From Thermodesulfovibrionia bacterium (GTDB lineage Bacteria; Nitrospirota; Thermodesulfovibrionia; UBA6902), in NCBI GenBank assembly GCA_947258735.1, contig CAMYJJ010000026.1, positions 1-19,467 on the forward strand: a DNA stretch of 19,467 nucleotides, read 5' to 3'. This document shows, piece by piece, positions 1 to 17,138 of the stretch. The position numbers and the translations under genes were made by a program. How positions within the stretch are numbered: the first letter of the stretch is position 1; each line of letters starts with the position of its first letter. Under the pieces are notes generated by a model. It saw only the letters and a program-made list of their open reading frames with translations, was not told the origin of the DNA and searched no databases.

Positions 1-55
1 CACTAATATTTTCTTTAGTTTTTTATTCATCTTTTCCTCTGCTTATTATGTCTCT

Positions 56-3000
56 TTAAAATCCATACATCTTCCACACACCAATTTCATCCTTTACAAA
101 AATTAACGGATATGCAAATATCCCGCCACTTTCTGTCCTAATCAACCCACACTCAGCCATATTTTCAGACTGACTCAATAATTCAAATCCCTCAAAGCTT
201 GAAAGTATTGCATTTAACTCAACAGTACCAAGATTATCAAATAAATTGTTATACCTGCTTTTACTCTCATCCACAAAATAATTAAGAGCTGACGAAATAT
301 CACCAGCCATCAAAGCCGTCTTCATCCCATTCCACTTACTCTGCAGCAATGCATCAAAATCAGTCTGATTCAGCACAACTAGCGCAATTGTATCCGTATA
401 CGTATTATTCTGATCATCTGTCACCGTTATGGTCGGGTAATAGACACCTTCAATGTGATATGTAAAATCCATGTTTTCAAATGAAGTCCCGCTATAATCA
501 ATAATCGCATTCCCCTCGTAATCGAGGTCATATGATGTAACGGTGTGCGGTATGCTAGTTGAAACTGAGAAATACGTATTAAGCGGTGCGATACCCGATT
601 CGATGTTTGCCTGCAATGTAACATGAGGAATCGTGTGATCAGCATCTGCTGATATTTCATATCTCGCTATAATTTGTTCCTTATCAACCGCAACTGCTGA
701 AATCGTATTCTGCCCCTCCTGTAATGGCACATGATTCACAAAGAACTCTCCATTGTATACAACAGCCACAATCCCGTTGACCGTCACCCCTGTTTCATAT
801 CCCAAGGTATTTGTCACCGTCCCTTTCACCATAACATCAGGCCTGTTTATCATATCGTTACCAAGCGGAGACGTTATCGATATGCTAACAGTACTTAATG
901 TGGTAAATGCATTATCTACTGAGGATGAAGATGTATTGAGACTGCTAGTTGATGTAATCTTGAAATGATAAATAGTCCCCGGCAATAAGTCTGTCAGTGA
1001 TAAGCTGTGACTTGTCATCAGTGCTGCATCAGATACAGATGAGCCATAAGATGAAGTCGCTCCGTAATCCACCTTACTGTCTGATGGCAGGTCTGTTGTC
1101 CAGCTGATTGTAGCTGAAACCTCGGTTATGTTCGACACGCTGATATTACTTATGACCGGATACATCGGATCTAACGCAGCATCTACAGTAACCGTCTGCT
1201 GGGGGAGCACAAATCCTGAGAGGAGATAGGTGACATAACCGGTCTTTGTAACGGTCCCGCTAATAGTGCCTTGAGCAACATCATTGATCACAAATGTACC
1301 ATCAGCAGCTGTTGATGTATTCTGTGAATCATTTAAGGAATCAGTGACAGACACAGTTGCTGATGCAATGGGAAGACCTGTTGATGAGTCTGTAACCGTA
1401 CCGGTGATGCTTCCTTTTAATTCCAATGACACTGCAATACTGTCCGACGATACATGACCGTACTGGTCTGAAGCCACAGCAGTAATCGTATTTGGACCTT
1501 CTGTGAGCGGTACCTGCGCAGAAAACGAATTTTCTATGATAGCAGCAGAAACTCCGTTGACAGTCACATCCACGAGGTTTGGGTCTACACCATACACAGC
1601 CAGTTGATTCTGACCGGTTGACCAGTAGCCCTGCATTATATCGAGCTGACTGTCTATATATACCCGAAAAGTGGTATCTACATAAGGCCCGAGGTCGCTC
1701 CAAATGCCGCTGTCACTCCGATATGTCATGCCATCCGAATAATAGTCAGTTACGAAACCCCCGTGAACTTTCCACCACTCTATGTAGTTTATATTATCGT
1801 GCACCGTCCTCCAGAGTTCCATATAATATGTATTTCCTGCCGTAACTTGGGGAGGAACTGAAAAGCTGAATGTTTTCCATTCATTATGAGATAAAGAAAC
1901 AGACATGGCAGATATCATATTGCTCATTGCTACAGGACTGCCACCGGGTTGAGTCGTAATCTTTACATATAGATCGCCTCCCGCGTTGCCCACTCTCGTA
2001 AGTATCAATGCTATTGCATCCAGCTCCCCTGAGGCAACTGGTTTAAATGACTGGGCATGCTCCTCTGAATAACCGCCGGTTCCGGCAGTGTTGAATACAT
2101 CACCCGTGACCGTCACCGGTGAAGAGTGTACCGTACTTCCATTCTGGGGAGTATGAATTGTTACTATTATCGGTGGAAATAGCGTGACAGATATGTTCAG
2201 GGTCTGGGTCTGGCTGAACTGATCGGTTGCTATAGCTGTTATTGTGTTTTGCCCCTCAATGAGAGGGACCGATGCTGAAAAGCTATACCCCGTTACTGTG
2301 GCAGGAATACCATTTACCGTAACCGTGGAGTTACTTTCCACATATCCGGTAACCGTCACAGGTGTTAAGTCTATAACCGCTCCGTCAGCAGGAGATGTTA
2401 TCATGAATGAAACCGGAGTCATTTCTATGTCGGAAATCACTGTCTGCCCTGCTATGAATATGCCAGTTTCGGTCTGTCCGATGTAATCAGCTTTCGTAAA
2501 CGTTGCAGTGAAATTGCCGGCAGCCGGTCCTTTTATGGCATAAAATCCGATTGAATCAGTAGCACTTTCATAACTGGTACCGGTGGAGTCTATCACGGTT
2601 ACCGTAACACCCTCTAAAGGCTGCCCTCCTTCGGTGATTATTTCCCTCACCGTTCCGCTTAATGACGGAATGATCGACAGTTGAACATCAAGTGTCTGAG
2701 TCTCTCCCGGACTGAGTGTGCCGCTTACTTCCAGCTCTTCATAACCAAGTTTTGTAGATGTTACAGTGTAATTTCCAGAATTTAATTCGGATAAAATATA
2801 CTGACCATTTGAATCTGTAATTGTGGATTCCGATCTCTCGAATTCTGCTTGATATAAATCAGTGGCCAAGGAAACAAATGAATCATAAATACTTATTACT
2901 CTCGCAGAAACCCAGCCATCGATATCATAATAATCATTTAAATTCGTTGCTATCGTATTCTCAATATCAAAATCGTATCCCCCGGATGAATATCCGATGT

Positions 3001-6000
3001 TCAATTCTATCCAGGAGTTTGTGCTCTTATTATAAATCTGACTTGTGACACTCTTATCATAATATCCTGATAAAATCTCTTCTCTATAATAAGCAGTTTG
3101 CTGTTGATCAATGGTGTCGTTAATGTAAGTTTTAAAGAGTAATTGGAAATAAGATTTCCAGGCACCATAATCTCGACGATAATTTTGCCCTCTATTATAG
3201 GAAAGGACGGTTCCAACGCCCATATTGATAGTTAAAGTTTCAGTTGGTTTATTTACTTCCAAATAATATGTTTGATCTTTATTTAGAAACACAGGAGTTG
3301 AAAAATAAAAGTCTGTCCAAGAATGTTCATTGCTTATTGCATTCATAGGAACAGCATCACTCACGGCCAATATGTTATCCACTTCACTGCCCAAAGCCGA
3401 TTTTAAATATACCGATACATACCCCGAGGTGGCGTTACCAGGTATGCCAAGGTATAAACTAACTTTGGTTAACGGTCCGGCTATTTCAGGCTGAAAACTC
3501 TGAGAATAAAATTCATACCCAGAACCTCCAGAGACACCATTCCAAGTGACTTTAATTGAATCCGTATTATTCAAGGGATTTTTGAACTTAAAAAGGTTTA
3601 CGCAGTATTTCCCTCCCCACGAATTATTAGCTACTGCTATTTTTTGACCGTCATTATACCTGTAACTTTCATATGGTCCTTCAAGTGAGCTCAATCCCGC
3701 ATATGATGACAAGTCAGAATCGTCTGAAGGGAGATTTGTCAATTTTCCGTAAGTATGATGGACGTCACTTGGACTTAAGTTAATGTTTCTAATCTGCTTA
3801 ACAGTAACCATAGCATCAGAAACCGGCAGTCCTGTATCACTGTCAGTAACAGTTCCAACTAACGCAGCCAGTGTCGATGCACTTCCCGTAACATTCAACA
3901 GTACTATTAAATTATCACCGTCATTGGATGGTATTAATAGGCTTTCGGTAAAAACCCCGGCAGACGCAGGTGTGAACGTTATAATCACTGAACAAGACAT
4001 TGAATCCAAAAGTGTTTGACCAGAGCACTCATCTGAAAGAATCTCAAAAGGTGCGGTCGGTGCTCCAATTGTACCGATGACTAAATCACCAGTGCCGACA
4101 TTGGATACAGTAACTCCCAGCCCGGAATAACCACCTACATCGATTGATCCGAAGTCAAGCGGAGTTGGGTTAACCGAAATACTCCAATCATCCAGGGTAC
4201 GATCAGATGTCCCCGTTATTTGTGCTTCAGCAACATCAAACCAGCCAGAGACATACACAACCCTGAATTTTATATAGCCATACCCCTGCATAAGAGTCAG
4301 GAGTTGCGTTACATCAAGATCATTCCACCCGGCTGTAAGAGTTACATCCACTGCAGTCGCTGTCTGCAATGAAATTCCATCTGAGTTATATGCATATACT
4401 TTAGCGGGCTGAGCACTCCCACTAAGATCGCTTATGTAGATCTTCAGGACACTGGAGGCAAGATCTGCAGCCTCAATGTCTGACCGAAAACTCACGGCAC
4501 TGTATTTACCTTGAGATCGCTGTACCGTTCTGCTGTCAGTGAAGAGTCCATCAACCATTAATGCGCTAACATCATTCGTATTGATTTCATTATCTGTTAC
4601 ATTTTTTAATGCCGTGATATAAGTCGAAATGTTCAGGAGATCGGTACTATCGTCACATACATCGCCTATACCGTCATCATCGAGGTCAAACTGATTAGAG
4701 TTGCTCAACCCGGGACAGTTGTCACACACAGCACCAATAGCATCAAAATCGTCATCAATCTGGTCTGGATTAAATTCAGCACAGTTATCACATACATCAC
4801 CAATTCCATCCTGATCTGTGTCATGCTGGTCAGGAGATGAAATGGTTGGACAGTTGTCACAAGAATCACCAATACCGTCTTCATCAGTGTCACGCTGATC
4901 AGGATTTGCATGATTCAGACAGTTGTCACATACATCACCTGCTCCATCTTCATCAATATCGAGCTGATCAGGATTCAAGGCTGACGGGCAGTTATCTGCA
5001 GCATTCAGAAGTCCATCACCATCAATATCGTCGTCACATACATCTCCAGTGCCGTCATAATCAATGTCACTCTGGTCGGAATTTGATTCTGTCGGACAGT
5101 TGTCACATACATCACCCACCCCATCTTCATCAACATCAATCTGCTCTGTATTGGCATTTGACGGGCAGTTATCTGCAGCATTCAGAAGTCCGTCTGCATC
5201 AATATCATCATCGCATATATCTCCAGTGCCGTCATTATCAATGTCACTCTGGTCAGCATTTAAATACGCAGGACAGTTGTCACATACATCACCCACCCCG
5301 TCTTCATCGCCATCATCCTGAAATATGTTTGCGATAAAAGGGCAATTATCACGTGAGTCAATAATATCATCACCATCAGAATCTATGTCAACCTCTATAT
5401 AATCAGTTCTGAGAGAAGTATCACTATTTCCAACTGAATCCATAACCGTTAGACTCACTGTATATATTCCTGTAGAATTATATGTATATGAAGGGTGTTG
5501 CAAAGTGGAGTCTACTGCTCCATCATTATCAAAATCCCACTCCCATGATACGGCAGGCCCCTGTGTGGAAAACGATATGTCTTTAAAATTGACTGTCAGA
5601 GGGGCCGTGCCATGAAAAGGGTTTGCGATAAAGGAAGATGTAAGAAGGTCCTGATACTCATCCGCACCCATATCAACAGTGCCTCCGGCTATTCTCGGAT
5701 GGCCTTCAAAGTCTGCCGACGGGAGTGACGGCGCTGCATTACTGCCCATGTTTCTTGCAGGAGAAGCCTGGGTCAGACGATAGGAACTGTCCAGCATCGG
5801 GTTGGCATTTATATTGTTCCCCGAATTGTGAATCCCGTTCCAGTTGAAGGAAGCTTTTGCAGGATCATAGTCATTGTTAAACGCGTCGGTCGTATTACCA
5901 GATACGTCCATGTCACTACTGGAGGATGTTGCCAGGTTTCCCCAGATGATGTTGTTGTATATATTAATCTTATTTGCCGATACTTCTAAGCCGCCTCCAC

Positions 6001-7720
6001 TGCCTACACCATCGAGCCTCCTTGCGATATTGCCTGTTATCGTATTGTTTATTAAGGTCAGATTTTCAGCCTCTGCATAAATTCCGCCACCATATGGTAC
6101 GTGGGATGTTGGATTGTTGGCGTTGTCCGCTACTATATTGTTTAGTAAGACCGCGTCACGTGACGTGATGATATACATTCCGCCGCCATGAGGGTCCCAA
6201 CCGTACGACCATGGTATATTATTCCAAATTGTGTTTGAAGTTATGATATTCCTGTACAATTCCACACCCATATCGCCTTCAACACAGATTCCGCCGCCGT
6301 TAGCGTAAGAGCGGTTTCCTGTTACCACATTGTCACTCATGATAATTTTCCCATTAGTATTGAGGTCGCCGCCGCCGCATGTATGATCGTGAACAAAGTT
6401 ATCAGAAACTATATTACGGGAAAAAACTATTTCCTGATTTCCGTCAGTTAAAATGAACACCCCTCTGTAGCCTGAGTTAACCGTTATGCCCTCTACAGAA
6501 ATTCTTCCTACGGAAGAATTAACTCCCCCATTATTTATAATATATAGGACAGATAAAGACTTTGTTCCATCAATGAGGACCGTATTTTCCGGATTCAAAT
6601 CTCTGGCGCTGCATGCATTGGTGTAACCGCCTGCGAGATACATTCCATAAATTTCCTGGGATACATAATTAAACATGGGATTCGCAGCAGTTGCATCTGT
6701 ATAACTCCCCTGTTCAATCCTGATAATGTCATACATGCCATTTGACTGGGCTTCGGAAAGGGCCTGCTGCAGTTCAGCGGTCGTTGACACACAATGATAC
6801 GCGGTACATTCATCGCCAATCCCATCATTATTAGTATCAAGCTGGTTAACATTAGATACAGTTGGGCAGTTATCACATGCATCGCCTATACTGTCTCCGT
6901 CTACATCTTCCTGCCCTGAATTGGAAATTATTTTGCAGTTATCATCCTGGCACGTGTTTGCCGCATATCCAGGATTACCATAACCATCTCTATCCGAATC
7001 CGTGCAGGTATCACAGATATCTCCAATGTTATCCCAGTCAGCATCAAGCTGGTCAGGATTACTCAGAAAAGGACAGTTATCTGAAGCATTTTCAATACCG
7101 TCTCCATCATCATCTTCAGAAAAAGTAGTGGCACTGACCTCATTGCTGTAGCCTGAATCCCCGATCGGATTAAATGATTTAACCTGATAATAATACGTAC
7201 TATCAGGGGTCAGCAGAGGATCAGTATCTGAATATGCAGTAATATTTGTTTCCACACTGCCGACCTCCAAATATGTACCATCTGAACCCGTTTTTCGTTC
7301 TATCTTAAAGCCTGACTCAGTATCAGAGTTATCTGTCCATGAAAGGTCTATCTGGCTTGAGGACGTTACTGTGGCTGTCAGATCTGAGGGTGCAGCCGGA
7401 GTTGTGATAATATCTGAGATATGAAGATCTGCACTGGAACTCAATGTAACTGTTCCCGTATAGCCAGTATTTATTGAAAGTGATAAAAGAGTAACACTGA
7501 AATCCCAAGTACAATTTTTTGACGATGTTACATCAAAAACAACATCATCACCATATTGAGGCTTGTTGCCACCTGACCAGTTATCCAGATTTGAAGCAAG
7601 ATAGTCTGTGCCGCCGCCACCCCATGTAACAGTCGCCGCAGTCGCAGAAGCACTACCCCCTATAATGAAGAAATACAGCAATACGCCTAATGTGATTGAT
7701 GTAACTTTAACCCGCTGCAC
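56..7720 (-). CDS. Giant secreted multidomain surface protein (FN3, TSP3, beta-helix, PKD, Hydin-like, Ig-like)
   Basis: This 2554-residue protein is probably an exported adhesin-like or matrix protein; no enzyme motif is visible. The start is GTG, 4-6 bases after GGAAGGGG. The signal peptide is about residues 1-29 (MQRVK, then a hydrophobic stretch, then SASA-TAA). Domains in order, approximate: FN3 109-199; three calcium-binding thrombospondin type 3 units 200-305; parallel beta-helix 306-690, ending in the usual DMGADEY; PKD 691-775; nine further type 3 units 776-1027; a beta-sandwich 1030-1175; Hydin/choice-of-anchor-D-like 1176-1283; a carboxypeptidase-regulatory-like fold split by a large insertion 1284-1680; a second such fold 1683-1770; Ig-like 1772-1850; Ig-like with an insertion 1851-2105; a third regulatory-like fold 2104-2187; FN3 2189-2277; Ig-like 2278-2354; PKD-like 2355-2447; and a C-terminal domain 2448-2554 that may be NTF2-like. 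I see no LPXTG, PEP-CTERM or transmembrane anchor. Export and calcium binding follow from the families; the adhesin role is inferred. Confidence 0.9.
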   Translation of the reverse strand: MQRVKVTSITLGVLLYFFIIGGSASATAATVTWGGGGTDYLASNLDNWSGGNKPQYGDDVVFDVTSSKNCTWDFSVTLLSLSINTGYTGTVTLSSSADLHISDIITTPAAPSDLTATVTSSSQIDLSWTDNSDTESGFKIERKTGSDGTYLEVGSVETNITAYSDTDPLLTPDSTYYYQVKSFNPIGDSGYSNEVSATTFSEDDDGDGIENASDNCPFLSNPDQLDADWDNIGDICDTCTDSDRDGYGNPGYAANTCQDDNCKIISNSGQEDVDGDSIGDACDNCPTVSNVNQLDTNNDGIGDECTAYHCVSTTAELQQALSEAQSNGMYDIIRIEQGSYTDATAANPMFNYVSQEIYGMYLAGGYTNACSARDLNPENTVLIDGTKSLSVLYIINNGGVNSSVGRISVEGITVNSGYRGVFILTDGNQEIVFSRNIVSDNFVHDHTCGGGDLNTNGKIIMSDNVVTGNRSYANGGGICVEGDMGVELYRNIITSNTIWNNIPWSYGWDPHGGGMYIITSRDAVLLNNIVADNANNPTSHVPYGGGIYAEAENLTLINNTITGNIARRLDGVGSGGGLEVSANKINIYNNIIWGNLATSSSSDMDVSGNTTDAFNNDYDPAKASFNWNGIHNSGNNINANPMLDSSYRLTQASPARNMGSNAAPSLPSADFEGHPRIAGGTVDMGADEYQDLLTSSFIANPFHGTAPLTVNFKDISFSTQGPAVSWEWDFDNDGAVDSTLQHPSYTYNSTGIYTVSLTVMDSVGNSDTSLRTDYIEVDIDSDGDDIIDSRDNCPFIANIFQDDGDEDGVGDVCDNCPAYLNADQSDIDNDGTGDICDDDIDADGLLNAADNCPSNANTEQIDVDEDGVGDVCDNCPTESNSDQSDIDYDGTGDVCDDDIDGDGLLNAADNCPSALNPDQLDIDEDGAGDVCDNCLNHANPDQRDTDEDGIGDSCDNCPTISSPDQHDTDQDGIGDVCDNCAEFNPDQIDDDFDAIGAVCDNCPGLSNSNQFDLDDDGIGDVCDDSTDLLNISTYITALKNVTDNEINTNDVSALMVDGLFTDSRTVQRSQGKYSAVSFRSDIEAADLASSVLKIYISDLSGSAQPAKVYAYNSDGISLQTATAVDVTLTAGWNDLDVTQLLTLMQGYGYIKFRVVYVSGWFDVAEAQITGTSDRTLDDWSISVNPTPLDFGSIDVGGYSGLGVTVSNVGTGDLVIGTIGAPTAPFEILSDECSGQTLLDSMSCSVIITFTPASAGVFTESLLIPSNDGDNLIVLLNVTGSASTLAALVGTVTDSDTGLPVSDAMVTVKQIRNINLSPSDVHHTYGKLTNLPSDDSDLSSYAGLSSLEGPYESYRYNDGQKIAVANNSWGGKYCVNLFKFKNPLNNTDSIKVTWNGVSGGSGYEFYSQSFQPEIAGPLTKVSLYLGIPGNATSGYVSVYLKSALGSEVDNILAVSDAVPMNAISNEHSWTDFYFSTPVFLNKDQTYYLEVNKPTETLTINMGVGTVLSYNRGQNYRRDYGAWKSYFQLLFKTYINDTIDQQQTAYYREEILSGYYDKSVTSQIYNKSTNSWIELNIGYSSGGYDFDIENTIATNLNDYYDIDGWVSARVISIYDSFVSLATDLYQAEFERSESTITDSNGQYILSELNSGNYTVTSTKLGYEELEVSGTLSPGETQTLDVQLSIIPSLSGTVREIITEGGQPLEGVTVTVIDSTGTSYESATDSIGFYAIKGPAAGNFTATFTKADYIGQTETGIFIAGQTVISDIEMTPVSFMITSPADGAVIDLTPVTVTGYVESNSTVTVNGIPATVTGYSFSASVPLIEGQNTITAIATDQFSQTQTLNISVTLFPPIIVTIHTPQNGSTVHSSPVTVTGDVFNTAGTGGYSEEHAQSFKPVASGELDAIALILTRVGNAGGDLYVKITTQPGGSPVAMSNMISAMSVSLSHNEWKTFSFSVPPQVTAGNTYYMELWRTVHDNINYIEWWKVHGGFVTDYYSDGMTYRSDSGIWSDLGPYVDTTFRVYIDSQLDIMQGYWSTGQNQLAVYGVDPNLVDVTVNGVSAAIIENSFSAQVPLTEGPNTITAVASDQYGHVSSDSIAVSLELKGSITGTVTDSSTGLPIASATVSVTDSLNDSQNTSTAADGTFVINDVAQGTISGTVTKTGYVTYLLSGFVLPQQTVTVDAALDPMYPVISNISVSNITEVSATISWTTDLPSDSKVDYGATSSYGSSVSDAALMTSHSLSLTDLLPGTIYHFKITSTSSLNTSSSSVDNAFTTLSTVSISITSPLGNDMINRPDVMVKGTVTNTLGYETGVTVNGIVAVVYNGEFFVNHVPLQEGQNTISAVAVDKEQIIARYEISADADHTIPHVTLQANIESGIAPLNTYFSVSTSIPHTVTSYDLDYEGNAIIDYSGTSFENMDFTYHIEGVYYPTITVTDDQNNTYTDTIALVVLNQTDFDALLQSKWNGMKTALMAGDISSALNYFVDESKSRYNNLFDNLGTVELNAILSSFEGFELLSQSENMAECGLIRTESGGIFAYPLIFVKDEIGVWKMYGF
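1640..2085 (-). other. Inserted beta-sandwich module, copy 2, within the giant protein
   Basis: Residues about 1878-2028 repeat the pattern of copy 1: GTGGY...QSFKP..SG...W..F.FS.P...TYYMEL...TTFRVYI...LDIMQ. The module lies inside an Ig-like fold. The first half of that fold carries SSPVTVTGDVF and the second half carries VDVTVNGVSA and EGPNTITAVASDQ. The uninterrupted neighbouring fold at residues 1772-1850 shows the same two parts joined directly (TPVTVTGYVESNSTVTVNG). The two module copies are diverged at DNA level. Confidence 0.65.
3110..3530 (-). other. Inserted beta-sandwich module, copy 1, within the giant protein
   Basis: Residues about 1397-1540 form a module with the pattern GGSGY...QSFQP...G...W..F.FS.P...TYYLE...LLFKTYI...IDQQQ. 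It resembles the choice-of-anchor R type of beta-sandwich, judged by recalled pattern only. It interrupts another sandwich-like region, whose halves appear to be about 1320-1395 and 1547-1623. That region in turn separates the halves of a carboxypeptidase-regulatory-like fold (GTVTDSDTGLPVSDAMVTV and ITDSNGQYILSELNSGNYTV). The outer split is clear; the middle layer is inferred. Confidence 0.65.
4927..5280 (-). repeat. Two tandem 177-base repeats encoding thrombospondin type 3 units
   Basis: Two adjacent near-identical copies lie inside the second type 3 block of the giant gene. The shared stretch that begins acgggcagttatctgcagca occurs at 4984 and 5161, exactly 177 bases (59 codons) apart. 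Each copy encodes two type 3 units, including the string DGLLNAADNCP. The other units of the block are clearly more diverged, so this pair is probably a recent in-frame duplication. Confidence 0.85.
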
Positions 7721-7733
7721 ATGTCCCCTTCCA

Positions 7734-7762
7734 CGTTAATCATTCATAAATAAATATTAACG
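7734..7762 (-). promoter_or_regulatory. Inverted repeat in the leader of the giant gene
   Basis: A perfect 7-base inverted repeat (cgttaat at 7734-7740, attaacg at 7756-7762, 15-base loop) lies just upstream of the ribosome binding site and downstream of the predicted promoter. It could be an operator or an RNA hairpin near the binding site. Nothing else supports a choice between these. Confidence 0.35.
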
Positions 7763-7781
7763 CTAAACCCGAAAGTACATC

Positions 7782-7810
7782 ATTCTAAATAAATAAATTA
7801 TAAAATGCAA
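7782..7810 (-). promoter_or_regulatory. Predicted sigma70-type promoter of the giant gene
   Basis: On the minus strand, TTGCAT (7805-7810) and TAGAAT (7782-7787) are separated by exactly 17 bases. Transcription would begin near 7775, giving a leader of about 55 bases before the GTG start. The surrounding DNA is very AT-rich, which raises the chance of accidental matches. Confidence 0.5.
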
Positions 7811-8058
7811 TAAAAAAATTACTTCAGATAGAAATCTTTACGATAAAAATAAAAAACAGTCTTTTTAAAATAGCAGACATATCAGGTGATAATGAGATTG
7901 ATGATAAAGAATTCTAAAAATCGGGAGTATAAGAGTCAGTATATCCGGGGGCTACATTTTCATACTTTTAATAAAGCGAAGAATAAAAATTGAAATTGAT
8001 CATGGAGCAGAGAGCTTAATATTGTTCATCTCAATGAATAAATCCAGACAATATAATC
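7811..8058. other. AT-rich intergenic stretch without a recognised feature
   Basis: About 250 bases between the giant gene's promoter and the small membrane protein gene. I see no reading frame with a ribosome binding site, no RNA gene and no convincing terminator. Confidence 0.5.
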
Positions 8059-8163
8059 TTATCCAGTAGAGATCAAGATAATAAGTGCAAACATGATAGC
8101 AAACAAAAACATACTACCTAAATACTTTAGTATTACATTTCTATTTTCCTCGGTTATTTTCAT
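8059..8163 (-). CDS. Small single-span membrane protein, 34 residues
   Basis: The ATG start follows GAGGAGG by nine bases, one of the strongest ribosome binding sites in the window. The peptide has a charged N-terminal part (MKITEENRNVILKY) followed by a hydrophobic span of about 19 residues (GSMFLFAIMFALIILISTG) and then TAA. One inner-membrane helix is predicted, with charged residues at the N-terminus. I do not recognise a family. It lies upstream of the giant gene on the same strand, about 340 bases away, but that gene appears to have its own promoter, so co-transcription is uncertain. The strong binding site and the clean split into polar and hydrophobic halves support a real gene. Confidence 0.6.
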   Translation of the reverse strand: MKITEENRNVILKYLGSMFLFAIMFALIILISTG

Positions 8164-8312
8164 GTTTACCGGCCTCCTCAAATATTAACCATCACAAAAA
8201 TCATATCGGCACATTATTGTATCTTCTTAAGGTATGAACTGAGATATCTTTTGTTTATAAAATTCTGAATTAAAGATGTTGGCTTGTCATTCTCAGTGCA
8301 TAGATAATAGAT

Positions 8313-8490
8313 TGGACTTCCCCCGAATTGGTGGACACGCCTGAGAATTAGTACGATTAAAAAGGAGGTGTACAAATGGGGGAAATAATTCGTCATTTCA
8401 GGCGAGAGTTCAAAGTTAATGCAGTCCAACTGGTGACAGAGAAAAAGATGTCATTACGTCATGTAGCAGAGGATTTGGATATTCACCCTC
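8313..8490 (+). mobile_element. Truncated left end of an IS3-type insertion sequence
   Basis: The stretch starting tggacttcccccgaattggt at 8313, followed by ggacacg, resembles an IS3-family terminal inverted repeat. It is followed by a perfect ribosome binding site (aaaggaggtg) and the first codons of orfA. No matching right end, orfB or remainder of orfA is present. The element therefore survives only as its first 180 bases or so, cut where the DUF1554 fragment begins. Confidence 0.7.
8376..8490 (+). pseudogene. Truncated IS3-family transposase orfA (N-terminal helix-turn-helix part)
   Basis: The ATG lies 6 bases after GGAGG. The first 36-38 residues (MGEIIRHFRREFKVNAVQLV, then EKKMSLRHVAEDLDIHP) match the start of the transposase orfA helix-turn-helix domain, which normally continues with a leucine-rich helix and a KW motif. 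After DIHP the frame runs into unrelated DNA that codes on the other strand. The open frame continuing to 8636 is therefore an accidental fusion. The product cannot be a working transposase. Confidence 0.75.
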
Positions 8491-8493
8491 CCT

Positions 8494-8693
8494 CCTCAGA
8501 CATCTGCGCCCGCCTCGGTAACGCTGATTGTCACAAGCAAGGAGCCGTCGGTGAGGTCAGCCCAGTCATCGGCAACTTTCACCTTGTCAACTCTTTTATA
8601 TGGCATGTCGCTTCTGTTCAATCTGGTACTGGATGATTGTGTTGCATCAGAGATCCATGCCTTATAGGCCCCGGGGGTCCTCGTCCGAAGCAC
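8494..8693 (-). pseudogene. Orphan DUF1554 domain fragment
   Basis: Minus-strand codons from 8672 down to 8496 read GAYKAWISD...RLNRSDMPY...ADDWADLTDGSL...ISVTEAGADV. This lines up without gaps with the middle of the C-terminal domain of the collagen-like protein next door (GTYKAWLSN...RLTKHDVPY...AADWVDLTDGSL...ISLNEYGMEV), about 28 of 57 residues identical. The domain's beginning (the FVT...GGADAKC part) and its C-terminal cysteine half are missing. The lower-coordinate end is cut at the insertion sequence junction; the upper end meets a GC-rich hairpin. GC content is about 48%, lower than in the intact copy. No start or binding site suggests independent translation. Confidence 0.75.
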
Positions 8694-8714
8694 CGCCCCC
8701 CGGGGAGGCGGTGC
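8690..8714. terminator. GC-rich hairpin just past the collagen-like gene
   Basis: gcaccgcc (8690-8697) and ggcggtgc (8707-8714) form a perfect 8-base stem about 22 bases beyond the stop codon of the collagen-like gene. No T-run follows on either strand, so it is not a standard intrinsic terminator. It may slow polymerase or protect the 3' end, or it may be a recombination scar, since it lies exactly where the orphan DUF1554 homology begins. Confidence 0.35.
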
Positions 8715-8736
8715 CGCGGGCTTCAGACCCTAAGAA

Positions 8737-10524
8737 CTAGAATGCCACCTGATCCTGCTGGACGCAGTATAACCGGCCGAAAAGGTTGCACCGCTGGTTG
8801 TTTGATGTCGTCCAGGAGGTAGTGGTTTGATTGGCGCTCCCGCCCTTACCTGTCCAGCCCGAAGAGGGCCCGCTCCAGTTGTTGCACGCGCTCCCGCAGC
8901 CGGGGTTGCAGTCCGTCGAGGTGCGGTTTCCGTCGGAATTGGTGTTGGTCCAGACGTTGATGGGGGCTTCGACCTCCATGCCGTACTCGTTGAGGCTGAT
9001 CGGTTCGTCGAGGCTGCCGTCCGTCAGGTCGACCCAGTCGGCAGCGATTCTCGTCCCGTCTGTGCGGATGTAGGGCACGTCGTGCTTCGTCAGTCGATCG
9101 GCAGCAATGTCGATATTGTTCGACAGCCAGGCCTTGTAGGTTCCCATAAGGCCAGCCTCCTCGGCACTGTTCTGGCATTTGGCATCCGCCCCTCCCAAGC
9201 CACCCAGGGCGCCAGTGTAGGTGCCCCCGGTCACGAAGATGATCCTGTAGTCGCAGAAAAGAGGGGCTTCAGCACCTTCGGCGTGGTAGATCTGGCAGAG
9301 CGCGATCTTGGTTACGGGTCCCGGCGGTCCTGTTTCACCCTGCGGTCCTGTTTCACCCAGCTGTCCTGTTTCACCCTGCGGCCCCACACAGTCTTCTGCA
9401 CTACAGTCCCCATCTCCACTGCTGTCCTCAGTCGCTACATCACACTCACCATTTCCGTTCAGGTCCCAGCAGTGTATGCCGTCTGCTCCTGCTTCCCCTG
9501 CCTCTCCGGGTGCTCCATCTTCACCATCTGCTCCATCATCGCCCGGTGGTCCCGGCGGGCCATCTGCTCCTGGAGGTCCCACAGCACCAATTGTCAGGTC
9601 ATATTCAGATGTCTTCCCGTCAGCTGTCTCAACGATCAACAGATAATCCCCGTCAGGTATGCCGTCCGGCAGTATGCAGTCGATCGAGTCATTATCAGTA
9701 CAGACCAGGGGATCAACGTAGTCACCCAGTGTGACTATTAAATTCACGTTTATATTATCACCTTCAATGTGTATCGATTCTCCTGACGGATCCAGATGCA
9801 CCTCGGTGATCTTGGGCTGGCCTGTTATACACGCAGGATCTCCATCGCAGTCCCCATCATCACAATCAATGTCATTATCGCCGTCATCATCTATGAAATT
9901 GTCACATATCTCCTCGGTCACCTCTTCGCAATTGGTAGGATCAATTTCCTTTAGTATAGAATCATCATCAGGCGTTTCCGTTCCCTTTGTGATATATATG
10001 GCATCAAGTTTATGCCCGCTCTCCCGTATCCATACATTTATCTCATGTGTGTCTGCCGTATTAATGAGGATGGTGTTGTCGCCCGATGGTGAAGTATTTT
10101 GTACACTATTTGACCATACCCATTGTCCATGAACCCTGTTATGGTTTAATGCCCCTACACATTGACCATCAACCCCGATAAACACCGAGTCAGACCTGCC
10201 TCCGGATGATTTTCCCCTTATCCATACCTTGTAAATTCCTGTATCAGGAAAATGAAGTGCATACTTCTTCCCTTCAGACGTCGATGGACAACTGGATGAC
10301 GTCCCGGTTCCTGCCAGCAGGTACGAAGCGCCTAAAAACTCTGTATCTGCAGTTGACGTTGCATATGTCCCTCCCTGAAATATGGTATCTGTGAAATTCT
10401 CTGCCTCAATATACGTACCGTCCGGGTCAGCTTCACATGCCCCTTCTGACAGCCCTGGAATCAGCAATACCAGGAACATCAATGAGATAACGTATACTTT
10501 GTTGATCGATATATCAGACATCAT
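8737..10524 (-). CDS. Secreted collagen-like protein with C-terminal DUF1554 (C-type-lectin-like) domain
   Basis: I place the start at the ATG at 10524, four bases after GGAGGG. This gives 595 residues with a clean signal peptide (MMSDISINKVYVISLMFLVL, cleavage near SEG-A). An upstream in-frame TTG at 10593 has no binding site. Domains: a CBM6/35-like beta-sandwich at about 31-185; an acidic Cys/Asp-rich segment with IDDDGDNDIDCDDGDCDGD at about 205-235; an IPT-like segment up to 315; 11 Gly-X-Y triplets at 316-348; a 31-residue interruption containing HCWDLNGNGECD; 8 more triplets at 381-404; then a DUF1554 domain at 405-595 (FVTGGTY..GGADAKCQ, GTYKAWLSN, DWVDLTDGSL, RLYCVQQ). The triplets suggest a trimeric stalk presenting a globular tip outside the cell. 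DUF1554 belongs, as I recall, with C-type-lectin-like folds; the ligand is unknown. The tip coding region is about 60-65% GC against about 43% for the N-terminal part. The leader carries a c-di-GMP-I riboswitch. Confidence 0.88.
   Translation of the reverse strand: MMSDISINKVYVISLMFLVLLIPGLSEGACEADPDGTYIEAENFTDTIFQGGTYATSTADTEFLGASYLLAGTGTSSSCPSTSEGKKYALHFPDTGIYKVWIRGKSSGGRSDSVFIGVDGQCVGALNHNRVHGQWVWSNSVQNTSPSGDNTILINTADTHEINVWIRESGHKLDAIYITKGTETPDDDSILKEIDPTNCEEVTEEICDNFIDDDGDNDIDCDDGDCDGDPACITGQPKITEVHLDPSGESIHIEGDNINVNLIVTLGDYVDPLVCTDNDSIDCILPDGIPDGDYLLIVETADGKTSEYDLTIGAVGPPGADGPPGPPGDDGADGEDGAPGEAGEAGADGIHCWDLNGNGECDVATEDSSGDGDCSAEDCVGPQGETGQLGETGPQGETGPPGPVTKIALCQIYHAEGAEAPLFCDYRIIFVTGGTYTGALGGLGGADAKCQNSAEEAGLMGTYKAWLSNNIDIAADRLTKHDVPYIRTDGTRIAADWVDLTDGSLDEPISLNEYGMEVEAPINVWTNTNSDGNRTSTDCNPGCGSACNNWSGPSSGWTGKGGSANQTTTSWTTSNNQRCNLFGRLYCVQQDQVAF
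9326..9379 (-). repeat. Three tandem 18-base repeats in the collagen-like stalk
   Basis: Three adjacent units at 9326-9343, 9344-9361 and 9362-9379 differ at one or two positions from ggtcctgtttcaccctgc. Each encodes two Gly-X-Y triplets of the second collagen tract. Gain or loss of units would stay in frame and change stalk length. Confidence 0.8.
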
Positions 10525-10546
10525 GTTTCCCTCCTTTTTATTTTCC

Positions 10547-10587
10547 TTATCTATACACAGATAAGGATGTTTATCTATAAACAGACA
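10547..10587. promoter_or_regulatory. Repeated operator-like motif upstream of the collagen-like gene
   Basis: ttatctatacacagataa (10547-10564) is an inverted repeat with perfect 6-base arms. A related copy, ttatctataaacagaca, starts 24 bases further on at 10571. Repeats spaced by about two helical turns between the riboswitch terminator and the start codon could bind a regulator or fold in the RNA. No known motif is recognised. Confidence 0.3.
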
Positions 10588-10661
10588 TGACAACGGTTGC
10601 TTCCTCTGACTGACCAGTAATGTGTAGTGAGATAAGAAACACTGGTTGTGGCACCTGCCAT
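10575..10661 (-). CDS. Possible 28-codon leader peptide after the riboswitch terminator
   Basis: An ATG at 10661 lies six bases after GGAG and opens a 28-codon frame (MAGATTSVSYLTTHYW..., ending TAG at 10575). It sits between the riboswitch terminator and the collagen-like gene. It contains two Cys and two His but no hydrophobic span. It may be a real leader peptide whose translation affects the leader RNA, or a chance frame. Only the ribosome binding site supports it. Confidence 0.25.
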   Translation of the reverse strand: MAGATTSVSYLTTHYWSVRGSNRCHVCL

Positions 10662-10676
10662 CGCTATCTCCTGAAT

Positions 10677-10713
10677 AAAAAAAGCCGAACTCACCAAAGG
10701 TTCATCCTTCGGC
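10677..10713 (-). terminator. Riboswitch-associated intrinsic terminator
   Basis: On the minus strand GCCGAA (10708-10713) pairs with TTCGGC (10684-10689), followed directly by seven T. It lies between the aptamer and the collagen-like gene. Its 5' arm overlaps the aptamer's conserved 3' segment (GGGCTGCCGAAG). Aptamer folding and terminator formation could therefore exclude each other, predicting that ligand turns the gene on. The 5' partner strand of aptamer helix P1 is not clear to me, so the direction of control is inference. Confidence 0.75.
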
Positions 10714-10784
10714 AGCCCGGCTATCTTATGTAAGACCCGTTGCTTTCTGCCCCCTTCTCACGAAGGGTTTGGCTTTTTCGGGCA
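10712..10784 (-). ncRNA. Cyclic-di-GMP-I (GEMM-I) riboswitch aptamer
   Basis: Read on the minus strand, the aptamer shows the GEMM-I signature in order. These are AAAGCCAAACC; a hairpin CCCTTC-GTGA-GAAGGG with a GNRA tetraloop; GCAGAAAGC; CGGGTCTT; and AAGATAGCCGGGCTGCCG, which holds the tetraloop receptor side and the conserved 3' strand. The usual G21-C46 pair (Vibrio Vc2 numbering) appears swapped to C-G, a covariation that supports a real fold. The position aligning with ligand-contacting G20 is G. That favours c-di-GMP over the cyclic AMP-GMP variant, which has A there. It precedes the collagen-like gene by about 190 bases with a terminator in between, so c-di-GMP probably controls that gene's expression. 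Confidence 0.87.
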
Positions 10785-11074
10785 TCTCTCTATCTGATTA
10801 TCTTTTACCCGATATTTTTCTGCCTGTCTAATGAGATATTTTAATTTCCATATTAAATTAAAGCATTCCAAAGAAGAAAGGATTCCTATTGTCTTTAAGA
10901 AGAAATAAAGTGAGGGAAATGATGGATTATCAGTAGACTGTTGACTTAATCGATTTTATTGATAAATTCAACAGATCTTCAATATCCGAGCAGACTCAAT
11001 TTCATTGACTTGGCTGATGAATGCTTAAAAATCAGTAAGTTACAGAATCGCTGACTTGACTGATGAGTCTTTGA

Positions 11075-11282
11075 TAATAGGACTATCAATAGATTGTTTA
11101 TACTGGGTAGAAGTGTGGATAATTCCGTGATTTAACAATAACTGATTGAAAGTTTCATTATATGATTTATGTCATATCATTCATTCGATATTTAGAAGTA
11201 ATATTAAGTGAAAGTTCGGCTAAAAGTAACTTTCAATTTTCCCCGAGGCAGTCAGCCCCCCCTGGCTGCCTCACTTCTTTTT
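11075..11282 (+). ncRNA. Candidate small RNA ending at the orphan terminator
   Basis: The stretch before the terminator has small perfect hairpins (ATATGA/TCATAT around 11165; GAAAGTT/AACTTTC around 11212-11234) and no credible coding frame. A transcript starting after tttatact near 11100 would be about 180 bases. The promoter match is weak, so existence and 5' end are speculative. Confidence 0.25.
11245..11282 (+). terminator. Strong intrinsic terminator with no assigned gene
   Basis: GAGGCAGTCAG (11245-11255) and CTGGCTGCCTC (11262-11272) form an 11-base stem with one G-U pair and a six-C loop, followed by acttcttttt. The T-run is on the plus strand. No protein gene ends here: the 66-codon frame at 11162-11362 runs straight through it and lacks a binding site. 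The terminator may end a small RNA. Confidence 0.75.
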
Positions 11283-11436
11283 CATTTAGCATAATTGCAC
11301 AATTAGACCTATATAAAATTTTTATAGCCGTTATAAGAAGGTTCCTATTGCTTATCATTTGAATATATAATAATTGGACTATCTATTTTGGGCCTACTTT
11401 TATTGCAGGGCAGAGAAAATATTAGGGGGGGTATCC

Positions 11437-11466
11437 GGTAGAGTCAGAAATGGCTCTGCCTTTTTT
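11437..11466 (+). terminator. Second intrinsic terminator with no assigned gene
   Basis: GGTAGAG (11437-11443) pairs with CTCTGCC (11454-11460) through one G-U pair, followed by six T. A second copy of the 5' arm, GGCAGAG at 11409-11415, could pair with the same 3' arm without mismatch. Two alternative hairpins are therefore possible. No protein gene ends here. Confidence 0.65.
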
Positions 11467-11739
11467 ATTTACTTCATATGGCATTAATCTCCTCTAATCA
11501 TTATTTGAAGGTTATCCAATTTTTGAAGACTCATCAGTCAAGTCAATGAAATGGCATCAGTTAAAAATCTGCAGATAATTTGCAATTATCAATAACTTAG
11601 ATTCAGTCTGCATATTACTGACTTGTTGAGTTATCAATAAAATAAACCAGTTATAAATCCAAAGATAATTCTCTATTATTCTCAAGGCTAATTTTCATAC
11701 ATAATTAAAGATTTCTACCGCAAATCAACAATAACATTC

Positions 11740-11769
11740 TTGTCATTTCTCTGGAGTGTCAGGTATATT
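11740..11769 (+). promoter_or_regulatory. Possible promoter of rsgA
   Basis: TTGTCA (11740-11745) and TATATT (11764-11769) are separated by 18 bases, about 50 bases before the rsgA start. The match is moderate and the region is AT-rich. Confidence 0.4.
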
Positions 11770-11823
11770 TTCGTATATACACAGAAACTATATTATTACT
11801 TGTTAGGTGTTTAATAATTTCTC

Positions 11824-12906
11824 ATGAAAAACATTTCATGCAGTATAGAAAAACTTGGTTTTGATAAATGGTTTCAGGATAGTGTTGATCCTGAGAGTTT
11901 GGAGGAGCTTGAGATAGCAAGAGTGATTGCTGTTCATAAAGACAGCTATACGATAACAAATGGTGAGAATGATGTTTTTGCTGAGTTGGTAGGAAAAATA
12001 ATATACAGTTCGGCTTCTCCGATTGATTATCCTGCTGTTGGGGATTGGGTATTTGCCAAGTTTTATGATGAAAATACTTTTTCATTAATACATGAGATCA
12101 TCCAGAGAAAATCCTTGCTGAAAAGAAAAACACCGGGAAAGAAAATAGATTTTCAATTGATTGCTGCCAATATTGATGTAGCATTTATTGTCCAGTCTCT
12201 GGATGATAATTTTAATCTAAGGCGACTCGAGAGATATCTTGTTATGATTAACGAAAGCAAAATCAGGCCAATTGTTTTATTAAGCAAGAGTGATCTTCTA
12301 ACCTCAGAAGAGATTGTAAGCAGGATTGATGAGATTTATAAAATAATGCCGAGTTTACATGTACAACCATTCAGTAACAAAGATGAATCCGGCTTGAAAA
12401 GTGTAACCGATCTTCTAAAAGAAGGGTTAACATATTGTTTGTTAGGATCTTCAGGTGTGGGCAAGACAACCTTGTTAAATAATCTCATCGGTGAATCCTT
12501 ATTTAAAACAAAAACGGTCAGAGAAAAGGATAGTAAAGGAAGGCATGCTACAACATATAGGCAATTGATAAAGTTAGATTGCGGAGCAATGGTAATAGAC
12601 ACTCCCGGAATGAGGGAACTTGGGAATTTTTCTGTGGAAACAGGCCTTGATGAAACATTTGCTGACATAATTGAGCTATCAGGAAAATGTCATTTTAATG
12701 ATTGCTCTCATATTGCTGAAAAAGGTTGTGCAGTGTTACGTGCCATAAAGGATGGCAAGTTGTCCGAGAAAAGATACCAGAATTACATAAAAATGAACAA
12801 GGAAGTTATTTACAACGAAATGTCATATTTTGAGAAGAGGCAAAAAGATAAACAGTTTGGAAAATTCATTAAAACTGTGATGAAGCACAAGAAGAATCAG
12901 AGATAG
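11824..12906 (+). CDS. rsgA: Ribosome small subunit-dependent GTPase A (RsgA)
   Basis: RsgA is a circularly permuted GTPase that acts late in 30S subunit maturation. The 360-residue length is normal for the family. An N-terminal OB-fold region (about 25-105) precedes the GTPase in permuted order: G4 as SKSD (154-157), P-loop GSSGVGKTT (208-216), switch I RHATTY (240-245) and G3 DTPG (259-262). The zinc-binding C-terminal region has C289, C294, H296 and C302. G4 reads SKSD rather than NKxD, which occurs in this family. The ATG at 11824 has only a weak binding site (TTAGGTG, about 15 bases upstream), but the N-terminus has normal family length. It is monocistronic as seen here, facing the transglycosylase gene. 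Confidence 0.95.
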   Translation: MKNISCSIEKLGFDKWFQDSVDPESLEELEIARVIAVHKDSYTITNGENDVFAELVGKIIYSSASPIDYPAVGDWVFAKFYDENTFSLIHEIIQRKSLLKRKTPGKKIDFQLIAANIDVAFIVQSLDDNFNLRRLERYLVMINESKIRPIVLLSKSDLLTSEEIVSRIDEIYKIMPSLHVQPFSNKDESGLKSVTDLLKEGLTYCLLGSSGVGKTTLLNNLIGESLFKTKTVREKDSKGRHATTYRQLIKLDCGAMVIDTPGMRELGNFSVETGLDETFADIIELSGKCHFNDCSHIAEKGCAVLRAIKDGKLSEKRYQNYIKMNKEVIYNEMSYFEKRQKDKQFGKFIKTVMKHKKNQR

Positions 12907-13266
12907 CTCCCATTAAACGCCAATATCGCTCCAATCCATTTGCAACAGATTATTTACAGTGTTACAGAAGACTTTAACCGTTAATCATCAATTCTGATCT
13001 TGCTCAAAATCATTGATAAGAAGGTGTTAGCAACAATCTGTGCCCTTCATCAATTCTGCTGATAATCACATTATATCGCTTTCCAAAGATCATCGTTCAG
13101 TCTGAAGACTTCATGATGTTATAGTGATTCTGCTGTCATCACAATTCTTGAAGCTAATAGAGATTTAGTGATGAAATAAGATCTGCTGGCAAATCACTCA
13201 TTATTAGATATTAGTGTCAGAATAGGCGGCAGTAGTAAGCTGTTTGAAATTTATTATCCGAAATGG
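12907..13266. other. Intergenic stretch between converging genes, no gene seen
   Basis: About 360 bases between the ends of rsgA and the transglycosylase gene. It holds a short direct repeat (tcatcaattctg at 12985 and 13047) and many related ATCA/TGAT words. I find no coding frame with a binding site and no clear terminator for either gene. Confidence 0.5.
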
Positions 13267-13995
13267 TCAGCTAGGGTTTGCGTCACTGTTATAAATGGCA
13301 AGGACGCGTTTCACGTATTTTTGCGTTTCTCTTATCGGCGGGACACCCCTGAATTTTATTATTCTTCTTGGCCCTGCATTATATGCAGCGATCGCCAGGG
13401 TAATATCTCCCCCAAATTTATCCAGTAGATATCTTAGGTACTTAATACCCCCTTCAATATTGTCGGCCGGGTTATAGGGATCATTTATTCCCATTGCGTT
13501 TGCCGTAGCAGGCATTAACTGCATGAGACCTATTGCACCCCGATGTGATACGGCCTCTGTATTCCAGTTTGATTCCACGGTGATTAAGGCATGGACCAGC
13601 GACGGTTCTATACCATGTGTGCGGGCTAACTTATAAATGATATTCCTGTATTGGGAAGGCTGTTTCAGCCTGACTTTCCTGGTCTTAATAGCCGGTTCTT
13701 CTGCTGCAGCATGCTGCGGATTGATTTTCACACTCTTGGAGTCTGCATGTTCTGTAGAAGAGCTCTGGGATTTATTTATTTCAATCTCATGATCCGCACC
13801 TTCTTTTGTATCTTCTGAATCAGATGCTGCACGATCAATGCCATCAGAATTTGCAGATAAGTCCTCATGCGTTTCTTGACTCGCTGTCATGCTTAGTAAT
13901 ACAGGATCGTCAACGTACATCTCCATGACGCAGATCATGCCCAACATGGTAAACGTTAAAATAGATATTAAGCTGCAAACGATTGCTTTTGTCAT
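13267..13995 (-). CDS. Membrane-anchored lytic transglycosylase (SLT domain)
   Basis: The 242-residue protein cleaves peptidoglycan glycan strands in the periplasm, by family. A hydrophobic N-terminal segment (about 4-26) is a signal anchor or uncleaved signal peptide. An acidic, Ser-rich linker (about 35-105) follows, then an SLT domain (about 115-235). The catalytic Glu is E141 in ALITVESNWN. Other family motifs are GAIGLMQLMPATA, NIEGGIKYL and LAIAAYNAGP. The protein is small, with no substrate-binding repeats. Such enzymes often open the wall for secretion systems or pili, but no assembly genes adjoin this one. The ATG has little ribosome binding site; a well-matched promoter lies about 50 bases upstream. 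Confidence 0.92.
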   Translation of the reverse strand: MTKAIVCSLISILTFTMLGMICVMEMYVDDPVLLSMTASQETHEDLSANSDGIDRAASDSEDTKEGADHEIEINKSQSSSTEHADSKSVKINPQHAAAEEPAIKTRKVRLKQPSQYRNIIYKLARTHGIEPSLVHALITVESNWNTEAVSHRGAIGLMQLMPATANAMGINDPYNPADNIEGGIKYLRYLLDKFGGDITLAIAAYNAGPRRIIKFRGVPPIRETQKYVKRVLAIYNSDANPS

Positions 13996-14043
13996 AATTT
14001 TTATGTTTAAAAATTTTTAAGAAGCTGAAGGGAATATATATAC

Positions 14044-14071
14044 ATTATACACTGGGATCACTATTCGTCAA
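14044..14071 (-). promoter_or_regulatory. Sigma70-type promoter of the transglycosylase gene
   Basis: On the minus strand TTGACG (14066-14071) and TATAAT (14044-14049) are separated by 16 bases. This is 11 of 12 consensus positions, the best promoter match in the window. Transcription would start near 14037, about 40 bases before the ATG. Confidence 0.75.
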
Positions 14072-14327
14072 GCAAAAAAAAATATTATGCAATATTTATG
14101 TATGCATAATTGTGCAGATAGTTATTTGCTTTATTCCTGGTTACATTAGAAGACTCAGTCAGGACGAAAATAAATTACGTTTGATATAGAAACATGCATT
14201 ATTTCTGTAATGAACTGATACTTTTTTGCAATCTAATTTGACAAATGGATGGTAATTTTACACTTATAGTAAATGAAATTTATACCAAAATTATATAAAA
14301 ACACAGGTATCGGGATTAAAAAAGTAG

Positions 14328-14412
14328 TGGTGGGCGTGGAGGGACTCGAACCCCCACGGGTTGCCCCACTAGATCCTAAGTCTAGCACGTCTGCCAATTC
14401 CGCCACACGCCC
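14328..14412 (-). tRNA. tRNA-Leu (anticodon UAG)
   Basis: An 85-base type II tRNA on the minus strand. The acceptor stem GGGCGTG pairs with CACGCCC, then comes A and an encoded CCA. The anticodon stem-loop CTAGA-CTTAGGA-TCTAG gives UAG. A long variable arm (TGGGGCAACCCG) and the T-arm GTTCGAGTCC are present. It reads CUN leucine codons, chiefly CUA. A T6 run follows a few bases downstream. Confidence 0.95.
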
Positions 14413-14520
14413 TTTGAAAAGATCCAAAAAAGCTGCAGATACTGAAGGTCTGTTAACCGCGGGTTATATTAAAACCTGTGCATGATTTTACAGGATGGTC
14501 TGTATGTTTGTCTAATTGTT

Positions 14521-14597
14521 ACAGGTTATGTGTTATGGATAATAAGTAATAGATATAAAGGGAAGAAGTTCCCCATGACCTATAACCTATCACCTGT
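14521..14597. repeat. Short imperfect inverted-repeat element past the NMO gene
   Basis: acaggttatgtgttatgg at one end and ccatgacctataacctatca at the other, which continues cctgt, are imperfect inverse complements. An internal hairpin (gggaa-gaag-ttccc) sits between them. The element lies just beyond the stop codon of the monooxygenase gene. It looks like a small dispersed palindromic repeat and may also act as that gene's terminator. Confidence 0.5.
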
Positions 14598-14600
14598 CTT

Positions 14601-15608
14601 TTAAGCTTCTGCGTACTCTTCAACCAGAGAAGCGATAAGCTTTTTGACAGGGATGATTTCATTACATCTGTAAGCATTGGAACCGGCAAATACAAAGCCT
14701 TTATCAAGATTGCCTTCCGCTGCATTGGCAAGCGCCTTGGCAATGCAGTAAGGGGCTGTTTTGGGACTGCATGTTTTAAGACAGTGAAAATTACAGGCTG
14801 TAGGACCTGTATGGCCCTTCATTATGTCTTTGACAAATTTATTCTTGAGTACTCTTCCGGGTAATCCAACGGGGCTTTTTATGATAACGAGATCATCCTT
14901 TGTTGCGTTTATGTAGGCCTGTTTAAAACTTTCATGTACATCGCATTCATCGGTACAGACAAACCGTGTTCCCATCTGAACACCGGATGCCCCCAGCCCC
15001 AGGTAATGTGCAATGTCCTTTCCATCAAAAACACCACCGGCAGCTATGACCGGAATGTTGGGGTTATACGTATTTGCCAGTGTCACAACTTCCCTGACCT
15101 GGTCGTCAAGTGAAGCGGCCTTTCCTTCTATAACATCCTGATAATCATATCCTATATGGCCGCCTGCCTTTGAGCCTTCAACTATGACCGCATCAGGGAG
15201 TCTGTCAAAGTTCCTCTTCCATTTACTGCAGATAATCTTTAATGCTCGCGCTGAAGGGAGCCCTGCGCCGGATATTATCAGATCAATCCCTTCATCAACT
15301 GCAGTCTTTATCAGAGGTTCAAAGTTAGAAAGGACAACCATCAGGTTTACCCCGATTATTCCTTTAGACATGCTCCGGGCTTTTCTAATCTCTTCTCTGA
15401 GAGCGTCATTGTTAAGGGATTCAAATTCAGAGCCGGGCCTGTTTTCAAACTTGCCCAGACCCACGCCGGCAATTACGCCGACACATCCTTCATTGGCAAC
15501 TGCCGCTGCCAGTCCTGAACGTGAGACCCTGACGCCCATTCCACCCTGAATGATGGGAGGATCAACCTTAAGGTCTCCGATATATAAAGAAGGTAATTTC
15601 TTATCCAC
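14601..15608 (-). CDS. Nitronate monooxygenase / 2-nitropropane dioxygenase-family flavoprotein
   Basis: The 335-residue FMN-binding TIM-barrel protein belongs to the family that oxidises nitronates; relatives include the enoyl-ACP reductase FabK. Motifs: PIIQGGMGV near the N-terminus, ISGAGLP, KAGGHIGYD with the candidate catalytic base H151, PVIAAGGVFDG, and GASGVQMGTRF, the FMN phosphate region. Near the C-terminus is a cysteine cluster, CNFHCLKTC then SPKTAPYC (spacing CxxxCxxxCxxxxxxxC). This could bind a metal or cluster, though I have no proof. The start is GTG at 15608 with no obvious binding site, chosen because the barrel's first strand follows at once. The true substrate cannot be told from sequence. 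It stands alone, with no fatty acid genes nearby. Confidence 0.85.
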   Translation of the reverse strand: MDKKLPSLYIGDLKVDPPIIQGGMGVRVSRSGLAAAVANEGCVGVIAGVGLGKFENRPGSEFESLNNDALREEIRKARSMSKGIIGVNLMVVLSNFEPLIKTAVDEGIDLIISGAGLPSARALKIICSKWKRNFDRLPDAVIVEGSKAGGHIGYDYQDVIEGKAASLDDQVREVVTLANTYNPNIPVIAAGGVFDGKDIAHYLGLGASGVQMGTRFVCTDECDVHESFKQAYINATKDDLVIIKSPVGLPGRVLKNKFVKDIMKGHTGPTACNFHCLKTCSPKTAPYCIAKALANAAEGNLDKGFVFAGSNAYRCNEIIPVKKLIASLVEEYAEA

Positions 15609-16072
15609 TTATAGTCTGTTTATACAACCTGCTGCAAGATACCAAGTAAGTAATGCCTCATGTACTGCTTTATCCATTAGCTACTGAATATCTTTGGTTT
15701 ATACCCATTTCTCCGGGCGTTGAAAGAGTACTTTTTTTGCTGAAAAATATACATGTCCGGCCCCTGTACTCAATACGATAGCGATGATTCATGTTTACCG
15801 CCCACATTTTAACATTTCTTGCACCAATTACGAAAATAGACGTACATGACAATACATTTATCCTTCAGCGGCGTATGCAGAACCATAAAAATCCATCTGT
15901 TTGATATCCGGCCTCATAATCAATTTCCTGAACGTCTTCACATTATGCCAAAACGCAACATACGATCATCATCACAATTTTCTACAGTTAATACACTAAA
16001 CATCCGAAACATATGATAGGAACCGGCACATAAAGGCTGTTTCCCCGTCACACTGCATCATGGAGAAAAGAT
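15609..16072. other. Divergent intergenic region
   Basis: 464 bases separate the monooxygenase gene (minus) from the MshEN gene (plus), so promoters in both directions are expected. I see no strong sigma70 match. ccggcacataaaggctg near 16022 resembles a sigma54 site but its GG-GC spacing is one base short. A 60-codon minus-strand frame (15670-15852) has no binding site and is not called. Confidence 0.4.
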
Positions 16073-17137: not shown

Positions 17138-17138
17138 C

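Follow-up and report, generated by a model that had tools for sequence, protein, structure and literature searches.

We examined a giant gene in a 19,467-nucleotide stretch of DNA from a Thermodesulfovibrionia bacterium (contig CAMYJJ010000026.1 of assembly GCA_947258735.1, positions 1 to 19,467), which we call the window. The open reading frame (ORF) occupies 56..7720 on the reverse strand, as do all parts of the protein described below, and encodes 2554 amino acids from a GTG start, with an N terminus that by eye resembles a signal peptide. Residue r begins at window position 7720-3(r-1), and the residue numbers of an earlier preliminary description agree with this conversion. A Pfam scan, which listed 21 families at E <= 1, recovered thrombospondin-3 repeats, PKD, fn3, an ASH/HYDIN-like Ig domain, and three stretches each of CarboxypepD_reg and Glucodextran_B, and additional NCBIfam matches included choice-of-anchor D and Q domains. 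Thrombospondin-3-like repeats (PF02412) lie at 4644-5383 and 6813-7118, with a spacing of mostly 69 nucleotides (nt) and 177 nt. No anchor was identified in the protein, which is probably secreted, judging by eye from its hydrophobic N terminus, and may be fibre-like. Within it, two copies of one beta-sandwich module are inserted into other domains, and we confirmed that this nested insertion architecture is real.

The preliminary description had claimed that one module sits in loops of unrelated host folds and that its second copy splits an Ig-like fold beside an uninterrupted sister, and both statements were borne out. The two copies (copy 1, residues 1396-1541, 3098..3535; copy 2, residues 1878-2034, 1619..2089) align over nearly their full length with 31% identity (E 4e-14), and predicted structures and unfilled relatives support their position in loops of different hosts. 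Copy 2 is predicted to lie within a Glucodextran_B domain, in the turn that joins its strands 3 and 4; this host has an N half of three strands (residues 1850-1876, 2093..2173) and a C half of five (residues 2051-2101, 1418..1570). The linker ahead of the C half (residues 2035-2050) is largely of low confidence in the predicted model. The host matches the Glucodextran_B profile (PF09136) and has an Ig-like fold resembling that of its unsplit sister just before it (residues 1771-1848, 2177..2410). When joined, its halves are 47% identical to this sister and 52-53% identical to the unsplit domains of relatives P0051 and P0022; these comparisons have shuffle z-scores of 16-18. In alignment, the place taken by the module and linkers in the split host is occupied by about three residues in the unsplit domains.

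Copy 1 appears to lie deeper, within a middle sandwich that itself lies within a CarboxypepD_reg domain. The N half of this outer host comprises the first strands of a CarboxypepD_reg, or transthyretin-like, domain (residues 1286-1309, 3794..3865), and its C half follows the insert (residues 1630-1683, 2672..2833; best PF13715 stretch 1630-1681). Copy 1 and the middle domain are placed after the second strand in the predicted structure. The host matches CarboxypepD_reg profiles (PF13620/PF13715) and has a transthyretin-like fold, and its joined halves are 35-46% identical to unsplit CarboxypepD_reg domains (z 8.7-15.7). Two unsplit sisters stand in the same protein, at residues 1686-1769 (2414..2665) and 2104-2183 (1172..1411; PF13620 over the same residues). 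We note that for this host the unfilled state is represented by unsplit homologues only, and that theirs is not proven to be the same site. The middle sandwich is divided into an N half (residues 1330-1395, 3536..3733) and a C half (residues 1542-1627, 2840..3097). Copy 1 had been described as apparently three levels deep. The outer host is well supported, and the third level is fairly likely, as the modelled middle domain appears jelly-roll-like on one weaker structural match. The insert amounts to 320 residues in a CarboxypepD_reg host of 78, to 146 in a middle domain of 152, and to 164 in a Glucodextran_B host of 88 when the C half is counted from residue 2041.

Relatives of the giant protein carry the module in a small number of contexts. 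Two whole-protein searches yielded 80 distinct proteins, including the window protein itself (an identical record, P0002, is extra); since the queries contained the hosts, this sampling favours inserted modules. We found 18 modules in 16 of the 80 proteins and five more in loci L001 and L004-L007, for a total of 23, and assigned their contexts by eye from flanking sequence. Ten are in the three-level nest (P0001 copy 1, P0003, P0006, P0014, P0019, P0047, P0049, P0065, L006, and L007), six are in a stand-alone middle sandwich (P0036 first copy, P0039, P0042, P0043, P0044, and L001), and seven are in Glucodextran_B (P0001 copy 2, P0035, P0036 second copy, P0037, P0038, L004, and L005). Glucodextran_B also occurs unfilled: P0022, P0039, and P0051 have an unsplit domain directly before a like CarboxypepD_reg neighbour. 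Locus L028, collinear with residues 2-1812 at 47% identity, has the three-level nest and a Glucodextran_B domain without the module before its CarboxypepD_reg neighbour, and L026 has a split Glucodextran_B after an unsplit CarboxypepD_reg. The NMO protein of the window shares 78% identity with one from G159, the genome to which L026 belongs, so the window probably derives from the same phylum as genome G001. A loose Glucodextran_B pattern occurred at 80 places in 43 of 85 sequences, with gaps of up to 30 residues at 60 places, 31-120 at 10, and more than 120 at 10; these counts are not used as rates, because some long gaps are chance pairings.

With host-free profiles, 10 of 395 genomes from one phylum (E <= 1e-8) and 16 of 176 from one order (E <= 1e-6) yielded the module, the two sets of genomes overlapping. 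Five strong loci were inserted modules and 15 were weaker. In 13 of these 15, all but L011 and L020, the match lay close to the C-terminal end, 4-31 residues away from it, in frames of 540-598 amino acids. These remote relatives (L008-L010, L012-L019, L021, and L022) come from the phylum and order of genome G001, and a transglutaminase core was found in the N-terminal part of L008, the sole frame of the 13 that was scanned. A further relative lies near the N terminus of a 288-amino-acid frame on viral contig L002 (4929-5790, +). The superfamily is thus not an obligate insert, as most of its remote members are C-terminal and one lies near an N terminus; the module clade seen here was inserted wherever it was found. 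A search with copy 2 alone matched none of 385 candidate proteins of about 440-1400 amino acids at E <= 0.001. This is weak evidence, from a search requiring shared five-residue words, that close module relatives may occur only in giant proteins.

Two alternative readings of the architecture were weighed. Ordinary end-to-end domains that merely appear interleaved would fit the mostly terminal position of the remote relatives, on the viral contig as well as in the 13 frames. However, the halves of each outer host form one fold and superpose on single solved stretches, and the joined halves align with unsplit sisters and relatives as given above. This rules out an end-to-end reading for both outer hosts, and we consider it extremely improbable overall. 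The second reading, in which the middle sandwich and module of copy 1 form one composite domain, leaving two levels, is unlikely. Several points nevertheless favour it over a third level. No middle sandwich without a module was found among the 80 proteins and the loci scanned with a profile of the middle halves, which was itself built from 16 proteins picked for carrying the module. In addition, the middle C half matched two genomes out of 395, each of which also carries the module, and for 10 C halves Pfam gave nothing better than E 0.05. On the other side, the module is found free of the middle domain in its seven Glucodextran_B hosts, in the 13 C-terminal frames and in the viral-contig frame, and the middle halves yield one structural match that spans the model from 32 to 350. 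The halves were found 143-172 residues apart in the 16 module-bearing proteins compared.

The module itself belongs near families with uninformative names. Similarity to DUF4082 (PF13313) was found for 11 of the 18 modules at E <= 0.1 (best E 5e-07), and similarity to the choice-of-anchor R domain (choice_anch_R, NF041539) for 13 of 18 at the same threshold (best E 4.1e-08). The window protein scores 22.9 bits against DUF4082, below its cut-off of 28.4 bits, and choice_anch_R (cut-off 30 bits) is not listed for it at E <= 1. The module of P0035 reaches 25.7 bits for choice_anch_R, also under the cut-off; for either family, a relative may pass. By structure comparison, the predicted beta-sandwich fold matches phage baseplate and central-fibre chains 9euj_G (phi812) and 8zdq_v (Douge) and may resemble the PHR domain of BTBD2 (3no8_A). 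These chains share the fold with the module but no sequence match, as searches of PDB chains with both regions and the module profile gave nothing better than E 0.05. A viral fold library returned numerous tail and baseplate proteins of phages, but these hits concerned the model as a whole and were set aside. The modelled match to phage chains would suit a recognition role and is no proof of one, since a common fold shows no function.

The distribution of modules among hosts suggests that each host was entered about once, in old grafts that were then inherited, although this is weakly supported. In a tree of 27 modules (23 inserted and four end to end), context changed four times, against a least possible three and a shuffled mean of 14.6. 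The three-level group and the two-level group formed one side of a branch in 82% and 93% of bootstrap trees, respectively. Two results limit this reading: only 38% of bootstrap trees set the Glucodextran_B group apart on one side of a branch, and strong support was found on just 3 of 24 inner branches. As the remote rows also sit on very long branches, we treat the grouping by host as a trend. The preliminary description had pictured a module that repeatedly enters loops, which fits this tree less well than a few old grafts do. That the module is still mobile is quite improbable, even though one protein carries it in different hosts, relatives differ in whether Glucodextran_B contains it, and the 38% value leaves that group loose. 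The grouping by context and the low identity between the window copies argue against continued jumping. A recent internal duplication was ruled out, as the copies are only 31% identical and fall in separate tree groups. The matching boundary motifs once noted at both copies (GGxGY at the start and I/L-D-x-x-Q at the end) did not hold up in most relatives, where they are kept in 1 of 23 and 9 of 23 modules, and they were rejected as a module signature.

We consider it reasonably probable that a fibre-like giant displays two PHR-like heads spliced into turns of its host domains, with the split hosts as pedestals and few old grafts behind them. The stalk would be a fibre of small Ig-like, transthyretin-like, PKD, and Ca-binding thrombospondin-3 repeats. 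Because both ends of a head leave from one side, the split host could serve as a rigid pedestal from which the head projects to the side of the fibre, leaving its far face available for binding a glycan, a surface, or a partner. The grafts, in no implied order, would be the module with the middle domain, that pair into CarboxypepD_reg, and the module into Glucodextran_B; they would then have been inherited, with the Glucodextran_B domain occupied or empty depending on the relative. The loop-grafted binding head proposed earlier is a good inference, with putative ligand binding argued by analogy. It is also conceivable, though rather unlikely, that the insertions are real and the modules are bulky spacers or stiffeners tolerated by the giant fibre and bind nothing. 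The unsplit Glucodextran_B hosts of relatives show that the module is dispensable for the host fold, and the nearest families have names that give no function. However, eight columns are invariant across 18 modules that are 29-60% identical to the first row, the module was retained over long divergence in three contexts, and its fold is common to phage baseplate and fibre chains.

The surroundings of the giant gene include a neighbouring ORF at 10593-8737 (-) of 618 amino acids with collagen repeats and DUF1554, and the region at 8500-8620 (-) looks by eye like a degenerate duplicate of a portion of its DUF1554 region. A c-di-GMP-I-GGC riboswitch (10707-10782, -, 68.1 bits) lies just upstream of this neighbour. 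It is the single riboswitch and precedes the neighbour gene, not the giant gene, for which 7600-8736 held no Rfam match at gathering score; a match at 8746-8826 was at chance level. No riboswitch was found in the loci of five relatives, although the L025 contig is short. Similar frames of 753-795 amino acids, with C termini alike by eye, follow the giant gene in L001 (12062-14320, +) and L027 (2871-5255, -), and the window ends too early after its giant gene to show one.

Heads carried on split domains have precedents. As described in PMC12077191 and PMC10865825, split domains of RTX adhesins hold a ligand-binding domain sideways, with its ends on one side, and AhLap carries an insert within a vWFA domain, which in turn buds from the RTX roll (PMC12077191). 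Such heads, even nested ones, are an established theme among RTX adhesins, and the earlier description of them as uncommon in bacterial surface proteins is not supported. The likeness is that a split Ig-like domain gives rise to a head whose two ends lie on the same side; this budding is supported here by superposition, and ligand binding would follow by analogy. In contrast to the RTX adhesins, the hosts here are CarboxypepD_reg, a jelly-roll-like middle domain, and Glucodextran_B, and one module family occupies two unrelated hosts of one protein. No family of RTX nonapeptide repeats was among the 21 Pfam families listed for the giant protein. A survey of ECOD domains (PMC13114784) puts insertions in about 20% of multidomain proteins, describes the A1-B1-C-B2-A2 pattern that the copy 1 nest shares, with six levels in cyanobacterial RNA polymerase, and reports inserts as consistently smaller than hosts (median 115 versus 199), whereas the outer inserts here are larger.

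Nested insertion in a bacterial adhesin and six-level nesting are thus already known. As far as one open literature library shows, where we found no paper on insertion in CarboxypepD_reg, what is new is which domains act as hosts, the module and its use twice within a single protein, and outer inserts larger than the domains they interrupt. Very small hosts can hold inserts up to four times their own size, and domain callers built on the assumption that domains follow one another end to end may cut such proteins in the wrong places. The unfilled domain, the module alone, the module in a pedestal, and the pedestal in a second host form a natural series in which stepwise nesting is testable. Looking for what buds from a split stalk domain, as in RTX adhesins, is suggested as a way to find likely binding heads in the giants of uncultured bacteria. 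More tentatively, non-RTX giants of Nitrospirota-type bacteria might practise a recursive display, in which one PHR-like head family is grafted into turns of tiny stalk domains and head and pedestal are regrafted together into another stalk domain, while relatives vary in whether the Glucodextran_B site is occupied and the outer inserts outweigh their hosts, contrary to the size rule of the ECOD survey.
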